This document shows positions 3,210-9,283 of a stretch of 38,049 bases of DNA, piece by piece. The stretch is from NCBI RefSeq assembly GCF_019599295.1, contig NZ_JAIEWN010000008.1, forward strand, positions 7,645 through 45,693. Reading direction: 5' to 3'. Numbering within the stretch: position 1 is the first letter of the stretch; every line of letters starts with the position of its first letter. The translations under genes were made by a program, and so were the position numbers. The notes below the pieces were generated by a model, which made no database searches, was not told where the DNA came from, and saw nothing but the letters and a program-made list of their open reading frames with translations. The stretch is from Oscillochloris sp. ZM17-4 (GTDB lineage Bacteria; Chloroflexota; Chloroflexia; Chloroflexales; Chloroflexaceae).

Positions 3210-3479
3210 ATGGCACTGAATCGTCGCTCGCTTCTCTTCGACCTCACCCGCGCGGAGGTGCTCGCTAAAGGGCATGTACTCCCTGAGCCAGCGCGCTGCG
3301 TGCAGTGCGGGATCTGCTCCTATAACTGTCCGATCGGCCTGGATGTGCGGGCCTACGCGTGGCGCGGCGAGCCCATCTTCGATGGCCACTGCCTCACCTG
3401 TGGCCAGTGTGTGGCCCGCTGCCCGCGCGGCGTCCTCACCTTCGCGCGCGTCAATCTGTGCGCCGAGCCCACGCATTAA
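3210..3479 (+). CDS. 2[4Fe-4S] ferredoxin-type protein (HdrC-like), first gene of electron-transfer operon
   Basis: An 89-residue soluble protein with two complete CxxCxxCxxxCP motifs: Cys30/33/36/40 (CVQCGICSYNCP) and Cys61/64/67/71 (CLTCGQCVARCP), plus one extra Cys84. This spacing binds two cubane [4Fe-4S] clusters. The style resembles the iron-sulphur domain of heterodisulfide-reductase subunit C and related quinone-linked subunits. The start at 3210 is preferred over an in-frame ATG at 3150 because AGAGG lies about 10 bases upstream and homology begins here. It is followed by the FAD oxidoreductase, the dihaem cytochrome b and the multihaem cytochrome c on the same strand, so it probably passes electrons between the flavoprotein and the membrane subunit. 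That role is inferred from the operon. Confidence 0.85.
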   Translation: MALNRRSLLFDLTRAEVLAKGHVLPEPARCVQCGICSYNCPIGLDVRAYAWRGEPIFDGHCLTCGQCVARCPRGVLTFARVNLCAEPTH

Positions 3480-3485
3480 TATAGC

Positions 3486-3518
3486 GGCACGAGGGCGGGC
3501 GTGGCCCGCCCTCGTGCC
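3486..3518 (+). repeat. perfect 15-bp palindrome between ferredoxin and FAD oxidoreductase genes
   Basis: GGCACGAGGGCGGGC at 3486-3500, three-base loop GTG, and its exact complement at 3504-3518. The hairpin occupies most of the 60-base gap and ends about 20 bases before the start codon of the next gene. It has no T-tract. It may act as an mRNA processing or partial termination site that sets unequal expression within the operon. Confidence 0.7.
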
Positions 3519-3539
3519 CACGAGAGAGAGATACGCCCC

Positions 3540-4862
3540 ATGGCTACAGAATATGTCATTGTGGGGTCGGGGGTCGCCGGCATCGCCGCCGCCGAGGCGC
3601 TCCGCTCCCGTGCGCCGGGGGCGAGCGTCACCGTTGTTACGGAAGACCCTGACGGTTTCTACTCGCGGCCGGGGCTGGCCTACTACCTCAGCGGCACCAT
3701 CCCGGAGAAACAGCTCTTCCCGCGCTCGCCGGCCGATCTGCGCGACATGGGCCTGCGCTGGGTGCAGGCCCGCGCCACCCACATCGACGTGGCGGGCCAT
3801 CGCCTCACCCTCGCCGACGACCGCACGATCCCCTACGACAAGCTGCTCCTCGCCACCGGCGCCCGCGCCGCAGCGCCCGACTTCCCCGGCAGCGACCTCG
3901 ACGGGATCTTCACCCTAGACACGCTGGGCGATGCCAGGCGGCTGGTGCGCAAGGCCAATAGAAGCGGCCGCGCCGTGGTGGTGGGCGGCGGCATCACCGC
4001 ACTAGAGCTCGCCGAGGGGCTGCACGCCTGCGGCGTCCGCGTCCACTACCTGCTGCGCGGCGCGCGCTACTGGGCGAACGTCCTCGACGCCGAGGAGTCG
4101 CACCTCGTGGAGGAGCACCTGCGCAGCGACGGCGTAGAGATCCACTCCCACACGCGGGTGCGCCAGGCGCTGGGCAAGAAGGGCAAGCTGATCGCCGTAG
4201 AGACCGACTCCGGCGCGCTGATCCCCTGCCACATGCTGGCCGTCGCCATCGGCACGCGCCCGCACCTCGACCTGGCCCGCGCCGCCGGGGTCAAGGTAGA
4301 TCGTGGCATCCTGACCGACTCCTGCCTGCGCACGAGCGCGCCCGACATCTTCGCCGCCGGGGATGTCGCCCAGGTCTACAATGAGCGCAGCGGCCGAGCC
4401 AGCCTCGACACGCTCTGGCCGACGGCGCGCGCCCACGGGGAGGCCGCGGCGGCCGCCATGGCCGGCGAGCCCACGCCATACCAGCCCGCCACCGCCATGA
4501 ACGTCACCCTGCTTGCCGGCATCCCGACGACCATTATCGGCGCCCTCGGCAGCGGCAGCGACGAGGATCTGGTGGCGATCGCCCGCGGCGACAGCGAGCG
4601 GTGGCGCAATGCCACGCCAGCATGGGTGGTCGTCGAGCAGCACGCGGTGAACCGGGTGCGGCTCATGCTCGGCGAGCGCACGATCACCGGCGCGCTCGTG
4701 ATGGGAGACCAGACCCTCTCGCGCCCGCTCCAGCGCCTGATCGCCGCCGAGGCAGACATTAGCCCCATCCGCGACTCGCTGCTGGCCGACGGCAATACCA
4801 TCCTCGAGCGGATCGCCACCTTCTCTGCGGAATGGGAGTGTAGCCATGCAGCCACCCCGTGA
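3540..4862 (+). CDS. FAD/NAD(P)-dependent oxidoreductase (rubredoxin-/nitrite-reductase-like, Pyr_redox_2)
   Basis: A 440-residue two-dinucleotide-fold flavoprotein. The FAD fold is at residues 5-35 (VIVGSGVAGIAAAEAL; Gly9, Gly11, Gly14), LLLATGARAA lies near 105, the NAD(P) fold is near 145-175 (VVVGGGITALELAEG), and the flavin-binding DIFAAGDVAQ is near 272. A C-terminal part of about 140 residues follows. This layout matches NAD(P)H:rubredoxin reductases and the N-terminal half of NirB-type nitrite reductases, which move electrons between NAD(P)H and a small iron-sulphur protein. The ATG at 3540 follows a GAGAGAGAG tract. The end overlaps the next gene by 17 bases, indicating coupling. Within this operon it is the likely entry or exit point for reducing equivalents in the cytoplasm. 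Confidence 0.85.
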   Translation: MATEYVIVGSGVAGIAAAEALRSRAPGASVTVVTEDPDGFYSRPGLAYYLSGTIPEKQLFPRSPADLRDMGLRWVQARATHIDVAGHRLTLADDRTIPYDKLLLATGARAAAPDFPGSDLDGIFTLDTLGDARRLVRKANRSGRAVVVGGGITALELAEGLHACGVRVHYLLRGARYWANVLDAEESHLVEEHLRSDGVEIHSHTRVRQALGKKGKLIAVETDSGALIPCHMLAVAIGTRPHLDLARAAGVKVDRGILTDSCLRTSAPDIFAAGDVAQVYNERSGRASLDTLWPTARAHGEAAAAAMAGEPTPYQPATAMNVTLLAGIPTTIIGALGSGSDEDLVAIARGDSERWRNATPAWVVVEQHAVNRVRLMLGERTITGALVMGDQTLSRPLQRLIAAEADISPIRDSLLADGNTILERIATFSAEWECSHAATP

Positions 4863-5706
4863 CCTGCCGTCGGCGACAGTCAGCCGCCCGGCACGCCAGA
4901 CCACCTACGAGATCGAGATATCGCTGGTGTTGGTCGGCGCGATCACCGGGCTGTACCTGTGGGCGTCGCGCGCCGGCACCCCGGCGTCCAGCGGGCTCTT
5001 CGGCCACGGCCTGGGCATCATCGGCTTCCTGCTGATGCTGTCCACCGAGACGCTCTACTCGCTGCGCAAGCGCGCCCGCGGGCGCGCCTTCGGGCGGCTG
5101 AGCAGCTGGCTCCAGTGGCATATCGTCACCGGGATCGTCGGCTCGTACATGGTGCTCCTGCACACCGCATGGCAGTTCCACGGCCTCGCCGGCGTGGTGA
5201 CGCTGCTGACGGTGGTGGTGGTGGGCAGCGGCGTTGTCGGGCGCTACCTGTACACCGCCATCCCGCGCACGGTGGACGGCGCCGAGCTGACTCTGGCCGA
5301 CCTGGAGGGCCAGCTGGCGGCGGGGGCCTCGCGCCTGGAGATTCTGGCCCGCACGCGCGCGACGCCGGGCGAGCCGCCGGCCCGGCTGCGACTGCCGTCC
5401 CTGGCCGCCGCGCCCGGCGGAGCGCTCGCCAGCGTGCTCGCGCGCCCGCTGATCGGCTGGCGCGACCGGGCCGCCCTGAGCCGCGCGATCACAGAGCTGG
5501 GAAGCCAGGACCAGGCCACCGCCGATGAGCTACGCCGGCTGATCGGCGAGCGACACCGCCTGCTGCGCCAGATCGAGCGCCTGGCCGCCGCCCGCCGCCT
5601 GCTCGCCCTCTGGCACACGGTGCACATCCCGCTCGGCGTCGCCCTGTTCGTCCTATCCTTCGTCCACATCGGCGCCGCGATCTACTACGCGACGCTTCTT
5701 CGATAG
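4846..5706 (+). CDS. dihaem b-type cytochrome membrane subunit
   Basis: A 286-residue membrane protein with about five predicted helices: near 24-42, 52-72, 90-108, 113-138 and 258-284. Two helices each carry an H-x13-H pair: His92/His106 (WHIVTGIVGSYMVLLH) and His260/His274 (HIPLGVALFVLSFVH), with His257 nearby. Two helices with paired histidines one membrane width apart is the arrangement used to stack two b haems across a membrane, as in bc1/b6f and related cytochromes. Between the two helix groups lies a charged, partly helical soluble stretch (about residues 140-255). GGGAG precedes the ATG by seven bases, and the start lies inside the end of the FAD gene. I cannot place it in a named family with certainty. 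The function as a transmembrane electron carrier is inferred from the histidines and operon. Confidence 0.75.
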   Translation: MQPPRDLPSATVSRPARQTTYEIEISLVLVGAITGLYLWASRAGTPASSGLFGHGLGIIGFLLMLSTETLYSLRKRARGRAFGRLSSWLQWHIVTGIVGSYMVLLHTAWQFHGLAGVVTLLTVVVVGSGVVGRYLYTAIPRTVDGAELTLADLEGQLAAGASRLEILARTRATPGEPPARLRLPSLAAAPGGALASVLARPLIGWRDRAALSRAITELGSQDQATADELRRLIGERHRLLRQIERLAAARRLLALWHTVHIPLGVALFVLSFVHIGAAIYYATLLR

Positions 5707-5718
5707 GGGAGGCTCCTA

Positions 5719-6969
5719 ATGCGTCGTCTTGGCTGCCTCACGCCCTTCGGGATCGGCGCGGGCCTGATCGCCGTGGTCGCCGTCGCCGCCGCCGCCCTGC
5801 TCAGCGGCGGCGCCATGTTCAGCCCCGGCCCCCTGAGCACCCAGGCGCGCAATGGCGTCACGCTCGGCGGGGTCACATCGCACGCCGCCATCGGCGGGAA
5901 CTGCGCCAGCTGCCACACGAGCCCGCTCGACGCGCGGGGCATGGCCGGAGCCTGCCTGGACTGCCACACCGACATCCAGGCCCAGCTGGCCAGCCCGAAC
6001 ACGCTCCACGGCGCGCTGCCCGACGGGGCCTCCTGCCTCGGCTGCCACACCGAGCATAAGGGCGAGACCGCAAACCTCACGAACACCGAGCTGACGAGCA
6101 GCTTCCCCCACGAGCAGCTCGGCTTCTCGCTCGCGGCCCACAAGCGCACCGCCGATGGCCGCAGCTTCGCCTGCGCCGACTGCCACACCGCCCTCGATCA
6201 GACCCCGCGCCCCGCCAACGCCTACGCCCTCGACTCGGCGGGCTGCGTGGGCTGCCACGTGGGCTACCAGGCCGGCTTTATAGCGCAGCACCGCGCTGAC
6301 TTCGGCGACGACTGCCTGAGCTGCCACAACGGCGTGGACCGCTACAGCGGCTTCGACCACGCCGCGCTGAGCTTCCCCCTAGAGGGCCAGCACGCTGAGG
6401 TCGGCTGCCAGCTCTGCCACACCGCCGCCCACGCCCCGGCCGACTTCAAGATCGCCGATAGCACCTGCGTGGCCTGCCACCAGAGCCGCGATGTCCACCA
6501 GGGCGCCTACGGCACCGACTGCGCCACCTGCCACACGCCCAGCGGGTGGGAGCAGGTCACCTTCGACCACAGCAAGACGGCCTTCCCGCTCACCGGCGCA
6601 CATACCGATGCGGCCTGCGCCAGCTGCCACAGCGCCCACGTCTACAAGGGCACGCCCACCAGCTGCGTCTCGTGCCACGCCGAGCCGCAGGTACACCTCG
6701 GCCAGTTCGGCACCGACTGCGCCACCTGCCACGTGACGAGCGCCTGGGAGAATGTGATCTTCACCCACACCTTCCCGCTCAACCACGGCGGCCGCGGCCA
6801 GATCGCCTGCGCCACCTGCCACACCAACCCGCCGCCCCAGCAGTACACGACCTACACATGCGCCAGCTGCCACGGTGACGCGGAGATGGCCAGAAAGCAC
6901 AGCGAGGAGGGGATCACCAATATCACCAACTGTGTGCGCTGTCACGCCGACGGTCGCAAGCATGACTGA
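5719..6969 (+). CDS. 15-haem c-type cytochrome, membrane-anchored or exported
   Basis: A 416-residue protein with one N-terminal hydrophobic segment (about residues 8-33) that serves as a signal anchor or export signal, followed by a region with fifteen CxxCH haem-attachment motifs. Several repeats follow a F-x-H-x4-F-P-L-x-G-x-H-x4-C-x2-C-H pattern, for example FDHSKTAFPLTGAH, so extra histidines are available as distal ligands and most haems are probably bis-His and low potential. This resembles the cytochrome c3/c7 and extended NrfH/OmcX-like multihaem proteins used as electron wires. It is the last gene of the operon, 12 bases after the cytochrome b stop with GGGGAGG before its ATG, and is followed by a strong terminator. 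It should lie on the outer face of the membrane. The terminal electron partner is unknown. Confidence 0.9.
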   Translation: MRRLGCLTPFGIGAGLIAVVAVAAAALLSGGAMFSPGPLSTQARNGVTLGGVTSHAAIGGNCASCHTSPLDARGMAGACLDCHTDIQAQLASPNTLHGALPDGASCLGCHTEHKGETANLTNTELTSSFPHEQLGFSLAAHKRTADGRSFACADCHTALDQTPRPANAYALDSAGCVGCHVGYQAGFIAQHRADFGDDCLSCHNGVDRYSGFDHAALSFPLEGQHAEVGCQLCHTAAHAPADFKIADSTCVACHQSRDVHQGAYGTDCATCHTPSGWEQVTFDHSKTAFPLTGAHTDAACASCHSAHVYKGTPTSCVSCHAEPQVHLGQFGTDCATCHVTSAWENVIFTHTFPLNHGGRGQIACATCHTNPPPQQYTTYTCASCHGDAEMARKHSEEGITNITNCVRCHADGRKHD

Positions 6970-6985
6970 TGCTGATGGCTGTTGC

Positions 6986-7020
6986 AACCGGGTCTCGGGC
7001 TTCGCCCCAGACCCGGTTTT
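6986..7020 (+). terminator. intrinsic terminator of the cytochrome operon
   Basis: AACCGGGTCTCGGGC at 6986-7000 pairs with GCCCCAGACCCGGTT (one mismatch) across a TTC loop, followed directly by TTTTGTATT. It begins 17 bases after the multihaem cytochrome stop. This is the clearest Rho-independent terminator in the window. Confidence 0.8.
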
Positions 7021-7093
7021 GTATTGGGGTTGGGCGGCTTCGCCGCCCAACCCCAATACAAAATAATGCGGGGGCGGCACAGCCGCCCCCGCA
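7021..7093. repeat. double palindrome after the cytochrome operon terminator
   Basis: A perfect 18-bp palindrome (7021-7038 with 7042-7059, loop TTC) is followed by AAAATAA and a second perfect 12-bp palindrome (7067-7078 with 7082-7093, loop ACA). A similar layout, ATTGGG palindrome, A-rich linker and GGCGGC hairpin, occurs at 30192-30263 before pheT. Confidence 0.8.
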
Positions 7094-7155
7094 CCCCCAC
7101 CGGGAGGTGACGCGCGCAAAGCCGCGCGCCAGCCAGCCACAGACCGCAGGTGGTG

Positions 7156-7168: not shown

Positions 7169-7864
<696 letters not shown>

Positions 7865-7867
7865 GCC

Positions 7868-9283
7868 GTGCCGCGCATGATCATCCGCCATACGCGCCGG
7901 CGGGCCGTCGCCGCATCCATCGCGCTGGTCGTGGTCGCCCTGTCCTCCCTGGCCTGGGCGCTGATCGCGCTGACGCAAAGGGGCGAGGTCATCGATGCGG
8001 TGGGGCAGCGCATGGCCTATGCCGCGATCGGGTTCGCCCTGGTCGCGGCGGCCCTGGCCCTCGGCATGGCCCTGCTGGTCGTCCGCCGCGCCGCCCGCCC
8101 GCTCCGCGAGCTGCGCCAGCTGGCCAGCCGCCTCGCCAGCGGCGACCTTGATGCGACGGTGCCCATCCCGCCCGACGAGGACATGGCCGCCCTTTCCCAG
8201 GACATCAACCTGATGGCGAGCCGGCTGCGCCAGCTGATCCACACCGCCGAGGCAGAGCGCGGCCGGCTGAGCACGGTGCTGGCCACCATGGGCGACGGCC
8301 TGCTGATCGTGGAGCCCGACGACACGGTGAGCGCGGCCAACCCGGCCGCCGTCGCCGCACTCGGCCTGCCGCCCGCCCCCTTCCCGCTCGCCGCGATCAG
8401 CATCGGCCCGATCCTCAGCGCCGCCCTGCGTCGGCCGCCGCCGGCGGGCGTCCCGGGGCCGGTCATCCTCGATGAGCTGCAGCCCCAGGAGCGCGGCCGC
8501 TCCCTGCGCGCCCTCGTCACCCGCCCGGCCGAAGGGGACACCCGCCAGGCGATCGTCATCCTCCAGGATCTCAGCGAGCTGCGGCGGGCCGAGCGCGCCC
8601 GCCGCGCCCTGCTCGCCAATATCTCCCACGACCTGCGCACCCCCCTGGCCTCGCTCCAGGTGATGCTCGACGCCCTCCAGGACGGCGCCCTGGACGAGCG
8701 CGGCGTGGCCGAGGACTTCGTCCGCCGCATGGATGTCGAGGTGCAGGGGCTCAGCCGGCTCGTGAACGAGTTCCTCAGCCTCTCGCGGATCGAGTCCGGC
8801 CAGGAGGAGCTGCACCTCGTGCCCACCGACCCCGTCGGCCTGCTCGAGTCGGCCGCGGCGCGCATGGCCGCCCAGGCCGCGCAGCGCGCGATCGCCCTGC
8901 GCACCGAGCTACCCCCCAGCCTGCCGGCGATCAGCGTCGACCCGGGCCGGATCGAGCAGGTGCTGCTGAACCTGCTCCAGAACGCCCTGGCCTTCACCCC
9001 CGCCGGCGGCAGCGTGACGGTGCGCGCCGCGCAGGATGGGCCATGGCTGCGGGTGGCCATCGCCGACACCGGCGTCGGCATCGCCCCCGAGCACCTGCCG
9101 CATATCTTCGAGCGCTTCTACAAGTCCGACCCGGCCCGCAGCGGCGGCGGCACCGGCCTCGGCCTCGCCATCGCCCGCCACCTCGTCGAGCGCCACGGCG
9201 GCGAGATCCTCGCCGCCAGCGCCCTCGGCGCCGGAACCACGATGACGATCTCGCTGCCCCTCGCCCCCGCCGAGCCGCGTTAA
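7868..9283 (+). CDS. sensor histidine kinase (PhoR-like, HAMP plus HisKA/HATPase)
   Basis: A 471-residue kinase. There are two membrane helices (about 14-36 and 50-72) with almost no extracytoplasmic loop, so the signal is probably sensed in the membrane or cytoplasm. A HAMP segment (about 73-125), a PAS-like region (about 130-235), HisKA with the phosphorylated His254 (NISHDLRTPL), and a HATPase domain with NLLQNALAF, DTGVGIAPEH and GTGLGLAI follow. Start is GTG at 7868; an in-frame ATG at 7877 is the alternative. It forms an operon with the upstream regulator and should phosphorylate that protein's Asp52. Confidence 0.93.
   Translation: MPRMIIRHTRRRAVAASIALVVVALSSLAWALIALTQRGEVIDAVGQRMAYAAIGFALVAAALALGMALLVVRRAARPLRELRQLASRLASGDLDATVPIPPDEDMAALSQDINLMASRLRQLIHTAEAERGRLSTVLATMGDGLLIVEPDDTVSAANPAAVAALGLPPAPFPLAAISIGPILSAALRRPPPAGVPGPVILDELQPQERGRSLRALVTRPAEGDTRQAIVILQDLSELRRAERARRALLANISHDLRTPLASLQVMLDALQDGALDERGVAEDFVRRMDVEVQGLSRLVNEFLSLSRIESGQEELHLVPTDPVGLLESAAARMAAQAAQRAIALRTELPPSLPAISVDPGRIEQVLLNLLQNALAFTPAGGSVTVRAAQDGPWLRVAIADTGVGIAPEHLPHIFERFYKSDPARSGGGTGLGLAIARHLVERHGGEILAASALGAGTTMTISLPLAPAEPR

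Follow-up and report, generated by a model that had tools for sequence, protein, structure and literature searches.

Through which proteins might a member of the Chloroflexota pass electrons between its cytoplasm and its surroundings? The question is raised by four genes, encoding a ferredoxin, a flavin adenine dinucleotide (FAD) oxidoreductase, a cytochrome b and a multihaem cytochrome c, which lie on one strand at 3210-6969 (+) of a 38,049-nucleotide stretch of DNA from Oscillochloris sp. ZM17-4 (hereafter the window; positions 7645-45693 of its contig, in an assembly of 6.7 Mb). An earlier note on this DNA had read them as an electron conduit matching no named complex, closed by a strong terminator. 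Our analyses suggest that the four genes probably encode a membrane-spanning conduit leading from NAD(P)H to the outside, for redox balance or extracellular electron transfer.

The gene set and its occurrence in the Chloroflexota

The features concerned are collected in Table 1. The start of the cytochrome b gene overlaps the end of the FAD gene by 17 bases, so the single strand and the overlap described in the earlier note are both present, and its account of the make-up of a passage from the cytoplasm to the outside agrees with the four proteins encoded: a rubredoxin-reductase-like flavoprotein (Pyr_redox_2, 3e-57), a dihaem b subunit with both H-x13-H spacings (H92/H106 and H260/H274), and a cytochrome c with 15 CxxCH motifs in a frame of 416 residues. 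The gene set, its motifs, its conservation and its invariant ligands are read directly from the sequences. Full-text searches of open-access literature brought to light no complex of this composition, as judged by titles and the opening parts of abstracts, and the set is apparently undescribed within the literature so searched.

Table 1. Features in and beside the four-gene set, in window coordinates
Feature	Positions	Strand	Basis
2[4Fe-4S] ferredoxin, 89 residues, cytoplasmic electron carrier subunit	3210..3479	+	Pfam Fer4 dicluster over cut-off; two C-x2-C-x2-C-x3-C motifs; no hydrophobic segment
15-bp hairpin between ferredoxin and FAD genes	3486..3518	+	-39.3 kcal/mol, z -5.1 for 3477-3545
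FAD/NAD(P)H oxidoreductase, 440 residues, PadH/rubredoxin-reductase type	3540..4862	+	Pyr_redox_2 3e-57; PadH model 6.5e-58, below cut-off; PDB 1xhc, 6ruz, 8c0z_E
Membrane dihaem cytochrome b, 286 residues	4846..5706	+	Four invariant His, H92, H106, H260 and H274; predicted ligand pairs H92/H260 (inner) and H106/H274 (outer)
15-haem c-type cytochrome, 416 residues, N-terminal hydrophobic anchor, putative extracellular haem wire	5719..6969	+	15 CxxCH; 15 further invariant His; hydrophobic segment within 3-37
Three consecutive hairpins, likely terminator, member of a dispersed palindromic repeat	6985..7100	+	z -9.5 for 6970-7110

Recurrence of the gene order in related genomes had been set in advance as a test, and the order ferredoxin, FAD oxidoreductase, cytochrome b, multihaem cytochrome indeed recurs in the host's own family and in other families of the phylum; the gene set is therefore real, conserved and above chance. 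The b subunit is found in 11 of the 41 genomes of the family (an initial search of 41 relatives had found it in seven), and all four genes are present in nine, contig ends cutting G015 and G041 before the wire. Eleven close loci, located by a contig scan with two peptide patterns specific to the close family, come from uncultured Oscillochloris, Candidatus (Ca.) Oscillochloris fontis Chuk17, Chloroflexales bacterium ZM16-3, Ca. Viridilinea halotolerans, Ca. Chloroploca and another Chloroflexales metagenome-assembled genome. Beyond the 11 genomes of the family, no b subunit occurs among 82 genomes of the order.

Across the phylum, a nine-row profile search detected the b subunit in 55 of 400 genomes drawn. 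The surroundings of all 55 were examined and, together with other family genomes, gave 62 cytochrome b frames at E values up to 1e-10, a limit that excluded the matches in L077 (9e-7) and L109 (3e-4). Within 4.5 kb of these frames, FAD, iron-sulfur (FeS) and multihaem genes stand together at 28 loci and FAD and FeS genes without a multihaem gene at another 28; the remainder comprise one locus with FAD and multihaem genes, one with a multihaem gene only, one with a FAD gene only, two with FAD and FeS genes in which the contig ends at the b gene, and one fragment. The contigs L014 and L015 belong to a single genome and have identical match values, while G423 and G309 are each represented by two loci. 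Contig ends cut or break L011, L016, L025, L026 and L094, and the FAD frame is interrupted in L064 and L065, the wire frame of L064 being broken too.

Three other families supply 18 genomes with wired sets (13 in f13, four in f27 and one in f83); 17 of the 18 hold all four genes. A bare form, FAD oxidoreductase and cytochrome b with no wire, is present in 28 genomes of f24, f40 and f43, and its FeS gene is found in 27 of them. The wired sets keep the order given above, apart from L059 (cytochrome b, multihaem cytochrome, ferredoxin, FAD oxidoreductase), and the bare sets run FAD oxidoreductase, ferredoxin, cytochrome b. The FAD, FeS and b subunits would thus form a separable core, with the haem wire as an extensible add-on. 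The cytochrome family PF14522 was matched in none of the 28 bare-form genomes, whereas it was matched in all 12 others in the same search, namely nine of the 18 wired genomes outside the family, G092, the host and G001; among 14 controls, E. coli and Thermus composti matched. Because G001 has no b subunit, multihaem proteins of this type occur without the gene set too.

Two kinds of locus stand out beside these. At L067:8847-10712 (f19) a related b subunit adjoins an 8-haem protein and chemotaxis-type genes, and the vicinity contains neither a FAD nor a FeS gene. The other kind is the bare FAD-FeS-cytochrome b set, represented by L068:6504-9715 and 28 loci like it; the genomes concerned measure up to 13.7 Mb, FeS is detected in 28 of the 29 loci, and two of them, L068 and L070, encode a FAD protein with a long C-terminal extension.

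The haem wire, the cytochrome b and the cytoplasmic pair

The 15-haem protein belongs to the c7/c3-type cytochromes, matching Cytochrome_C7 (PF14522, 2e-19), PF14537 (2.7e-19) and PF02085 (3.8e-14), and finds no match in the PDB at 0.01. In the eight aligned wires of the family, the histidines of all 15 CxxCH motifs and exactly 15 others are invariant. Because a second axial histidine is thereby available for each of the 15 haems, the protein would be a conduit with no obvious open catalytic haem site. Every one of the 37 multihaem frames that carry eight or more haems has other histidines in a number equal to or above that of its haems.

The wires appear to grow by tandem three-haem modules, from 14 to at least 37 haems. 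Two of the eight aligned family wires differ by an inserted unit of 66-67 residues carrying three CxxCH motifs and three other conserved histidines, and tandem DNA repeats of 198-201 bases occur in L010. A strict three-haem module pattern is found up to seven times per frame, and is absent from eight of the 37 frames. Uncut wires hold 14 to 33 haems, and one frame that reaches the end of its stretch holds 37; haem numbers of 14 and 17 fall outside a simple 15 + 3n series, and the outliers are L067 with 8, the second, cut frame of L059 with 10, and the broken frame of L064 with 13 (and 3). In the large cytochromes of Anaerolineales a varying haem number has been noted before (PMC7399161). A second wire gene adjoins the first in eight loci; for example, neighbouring tandem wire genes encode 18 and 33 haems at L010:9017-12994, and 18 and at least 37 at L084:4726-9001. 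At the N terminus of the window wire, residues 1-11 (5719-5751) carry the motif M..LGCLTPFG ahead of the hydrophobic anchor, and its Cys6, which lies outside any CxxCH, is invariant in all eight family wires.

In the b subunit, H92, H106, H260 and H274 form two pairs with 13 residues between the members of each. Because these are the only histidines invariant in 30 diverse relatives, they are predicted to ligate two bis-His haems. Residues 73-90 form a basic segment (net +6) and residues 137-252 a long loop (net +5), the latter missing in f13, where the b subunit is mostly 184 residues long; judged from such charged segments, the simplest topology would set H92/H260 on the cytoplasmic side and H106/H274 on the outer side. 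A further pair, H54 and H257, is present in 30 of 30 loci with a haem neighbour, as against none of 29 core-only loci (one of the 29 cut). The pair is present also in L016, a locus that a contig end cuts short; for L025 a histidine was assigned to 257 by the script even though the frame breaks before that position. The pattern follows two clades and may reflect a single historical change, so that it is an association and not functional proof.

The b subunit reaches the cut-off of no Pfam family, its match to Ni_hydr_CYTB (PF01292) being sub-threshold only. Ferric_reduct weakly matches three of the 30 relatives (best 0.0011) and leaves the window protein unmatched. Searches of the PDB with the b subunit alone or with a 30-row profile gave no match below E 0.1, and viral contigs, plasmids and PHROGs gave no match to it.

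On the cytoplasmic side, the flavoprotein falls into the rubredoxin-reductase group of Pyr_redox_2 (PF07992). Its closest NCBIfam model among the matches listed is PadH, whose equivalog cut-off it misses (196.6 versus 475 bits), and PadH also ranks first for one f13 flavoprotein and for both of the bare-form flavoproteins checked. Of the PDB chains nearest to it (Table 1), 8c0z_E, a subunit of an aldehyde oxidoreductase (AorC), carries a description that likens it to ferredoxin:NADH oxidoreductases. Among solved structures the ferredoxin is best matched by the polyferredoxins MvhB and FwdF, and the label HdrC-like, which the earlier note had given it, finds no support: no HdrC model appears in the best 25 of 47 NCBIfam matches (down to E 4e-4) or in 26 PDB matches, a weaker match being possible among the other 22 of the 47. 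One f13 ferredoxin gives a weak PadF match as well, and the bare-form ferredoxins show no clear sequence similarity to that of the window. Hydropathy finds no hydrophobic segment in either the FAD or the FeS protein, and the two would together be the kind of pair that links NAD(H) to FeS chains. PadF/PadH of phenylglyoxylate dehydrogenase and 8c0z_E resemble this pair in that a flavoprotein and a small ferredoxin link NAD(H) to an FeS chain; these serve soluble oxidoreductases and, unlike the present set, are without membrane haem subunits.

Hairpins and neighbouring genes

Downstream of the wire gene, 6970-7110 folds into three consecutive strong hairpins (-101 kcal/mol), the first of which is followed by UUUUGUAUU. 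This agrees with the strong terminator that the earlier note had placed at the end of the set as far as the fold goes (z -9.5), although a simple terminator scan of the same region gives a site on the - strand only and the element is a dispersed repeat. The palindrome at 6985-7100 matches 60 times within the host genome, some places being counted on both strands and 40 of 175 first-look candidates having been scored, and is a member of a family of palindromes of the host genome resembling repetitive extragenic palindromic sequences. A terminator role of the three hairpins is likely, yet not specific to this gene set, because the hairpin element belongs to a dispersed palindromic repeat. As for the hairpin in the gap between the ferredoxin and FAD genes, it might modulate expression or represent a further dispersed palindrome.

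Directly upstream of the set lies a gene for a CrtD-like carotenoid desaturase (1461-2972; TIGR02733, 2.9e-104, below cut-off), and directly downstream genes for an OmpR-type response regulator and a sensor kinase (7169-9283). In the other loci examined, neither the CrtD-like gene upstream nor the TauE gene downstream stands beside the set. Matches to the regulator in family loci are weak (42% in L016 and 28% in L024), and some distant loci also hold regulators or kinases.

A candidate outward path and its alternatives

From the gene set and its conserved ligands we infer a single four-protein complex, its topology, an outward direction of flow and a bypass of quinone. NAD(P)H or reduced ferredoxin would give electrons to the FAD subunit, and the 2[4Fe-4S] ferredoxin would convert hydride chemistry into single electrons, which would cross the membrane over two stacked b haems, the inner at H92/H260 and then the outer at H106/H274. 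From the outer b haem they would enter the wire, a chain of 15 bis-His c haems anchored at the external surface of what is presumed to be a monoderm cell, with a single membrane, and would leave it for an acceptor outside, for instance humic matter or a mineral, a second cytochrome or a partner cell. General bioenergetics speaks for this outward direction, since NAD(P)H is a strong reductant and the membrane potential draws electrons towards the outside. Because such movement runs down the membrane potential, the set would act as an electron outlet regenerating NAD(P)+ or oxidised ferredoxin and not as a pump; it would spend energy instead of storing it, and could serve redox balance, for example in the dark or when the cell is over-reduced. 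The bare sets would reduce an acceptor directly at the outer face, as ferric reductases do, or reduce quinone. The membrane domain of NADPH oxidases and ferric reductases offers a parallel, in that electrons of a cytoplasmic flavin cross the membrane over two bis-His b haems, although the flavin domain there is of another fold. A single membrane is likewise presumed for another member of the Chloroflexi (PMC5808234).

Several observations weigh against this sequence-based model. The b subunit is absent from 30 of the 41 family genomes, including one of the six in the genus, the wired locus of G280 has no detectable ferredoxin, and G092 (f19) has a b subunit and an 8-haem protein only. The invariance of the 15 distal histidines is that of family wires only, which are 57-82% identical to the window wire, and at a hydropathy threshold of 1.6 the helix that holds H92 and H106 goes undetected, leaving four of the five that are proposed for the b subunit. 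AlphaFold confidence (predicted local distance difference test) is 54.9 for the b subunit and 41.1 for the 15-haem protein, too poor for the models to be used, and PDB and Pfam searches retrieved no relative of the b subunit whose function is known. Pairwise distances of the four proteins correlate over 25 wired loci (cytochrome b with FAD protein, r 0.91; FAD protein with wire, 0.86; lowest, 0.69), which speaks for the model, but these values carry shared ancestry, with no unrelated gene as control, and fall to 0.44-0.71 within the 13 f13 loci. A quinone site in the b subunit is also possible.

This last point leads to the alternative that survives best, although we regard it as clearly less likely than direct feeding by the flavoprotein: the b subunit may trade electrons with menaquinone, as part of a quinol:cytochrome or NAD(P)H:quinone module like CymA, CbcL, ImcH or Mco; the same haems would then receive electrons from the flavoprotein or lose them to it. 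Elsewhere, membrane haem proteins paired with such c chains act, or are proposed to act, as oxidoreductases of quinol or methanophenazine (PMC6295460, PMC9012536); the chains are multihaem there too. CbcL/MtoC/MtrH and ImcH are described as handing electrons to multihaem c chains in the same way and as proposed quinol oxidases, which sets them apart from a FAD-fed set (PMC6295460). CbcL, in which the number of CxxCH motifs varies from 3 to 23 (PMC6295460), fuses a multihaem N-terminal half to a HydC/FdnI-like b domain, whereas b and c are separate frames in the wired loci. Mco of anaerobic methanotrophic (ANME) archaea likewise has a cytochrome b gene (VhtC-related) followed by a multihaem c gene (7-11 haems), in cells that lack an outer membrane, but is proposed to be fed by methanophenazine, and the description of Mco mentions no FAD or ferredoxin gene (PMC9012536). 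The accounts of CymA, CbcL, ImcH and Mco, all of which are or are proposed to be linked to quinol or methanophenazine, name no FAD-FeS pair with them. H54 and H257, confined to wired b subunits (30 of 30 versus none of 29 core-only), could serve a quinone site. On the other hand, the core-only sets lack these two residues, the window b subunit reaches no Pfam family cut-off, and the dedicated FAD-FeS pair makes quinone unnecessary for NAD(P)H oxidation.

Flow in the opposite direction appears unlikely. Here the wire would take electrons from Fe(II), sulfide-linked donors or partner cells and deliver them to NAD(P)+ or ferredoxin for CO2 or N2 fixation. The host carries type II reaction-centre genes; because reaction-centre proteins (PF00124) are found in 40 of the 41 family genomes, the host included, it is most likely an anoxygenic phototroph. 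However, the b subunit is absent from 29 of the 40 family genomes with reaction-centre genes, reduction of NAD(P)+ is uphill from most external donors, and the membrane potential opposes the inward movement of electrons. In favour of this direction, a cultured member of the Chloroflexi is reported to perform both anodic and cathodic exchange (PMC5808234). These likelihoods overlap, since quinone use and direction of flow are not exclusive of one another, and are not required to sum to one.

There is, thirdly, little to recommend the view that the genes are mere neighbours, the ferredoxin and FAD protein forming a soluble reductase and the b and c proteins a separate oxidoreductase, although in L067 the cytochrome b gene has that of an 8-haem protein beside it but lacks FAD and FeS genes in its vicinity, and L059 places the b and c genes ahead of the ferredoxin and FAD genes. 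That the FAD and FeS proteins belong elsewhere is hard to accept because the FAD-FeS-b triad persists without a wire in 28 of 29 core-only loci.

As far as the available descriptions go, the nearest known composition is that of the anammox (Kuenenia) Rieske/cytochrome b complexes, which unite a putative cytoplasmic NAD(P)/FAD oxidoreductase with modelled Fe-S clusters, b haems in the membrane, and hexa- or octahaem c proteins on the opposite side (PMC12954380). A bifurcation of this kind, with the electrons of quinol divided between NAD(P)+ and the multihaem chain, is nevertheless very improbable here, as a Pfam comparison of these four proteins, at E values up to 0.1, gives no match to a Rieske or bc1-type cytochrome b model.

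Returning to the outward conduit fed by NAD(P)H, we tentatively propose a wider role for it, with less confidence than the conduit itself. The set may be the missing inner-membrane gate for extracellular electron transfer in the Chloroflexota, one that would be independent of quinone: an adjustable wire, its length given by the number of three-haem cassettes, would have been bolted onto a bare three-subunit reductase that other lineages still use, with H54 and H257 perhaps taking part in the hand-over to the wire. A survey of quinol-linked inner-membrane gates published in 2018 lists for the Chloroflexi no CymA, no CbcL-type protein and one ImcH homologue (PMC6295460), a member of the group is reported to exchange electrons with electrodes in both anodic and cathodic mode (PMC5808234), and other Chloroflexota carry large multihaem cytochromes of varying haem number (PMC7399161). 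The gene set offers a concrete and testable path from cytoplasmic carriers to surface haems in named phototroph strains, and its wires, of 14 to at least 37 haems, provide a natural series for the effect of length on conduction. If true, such a conduit could explain how Chloroflexota exchange electrons with their surroundings.

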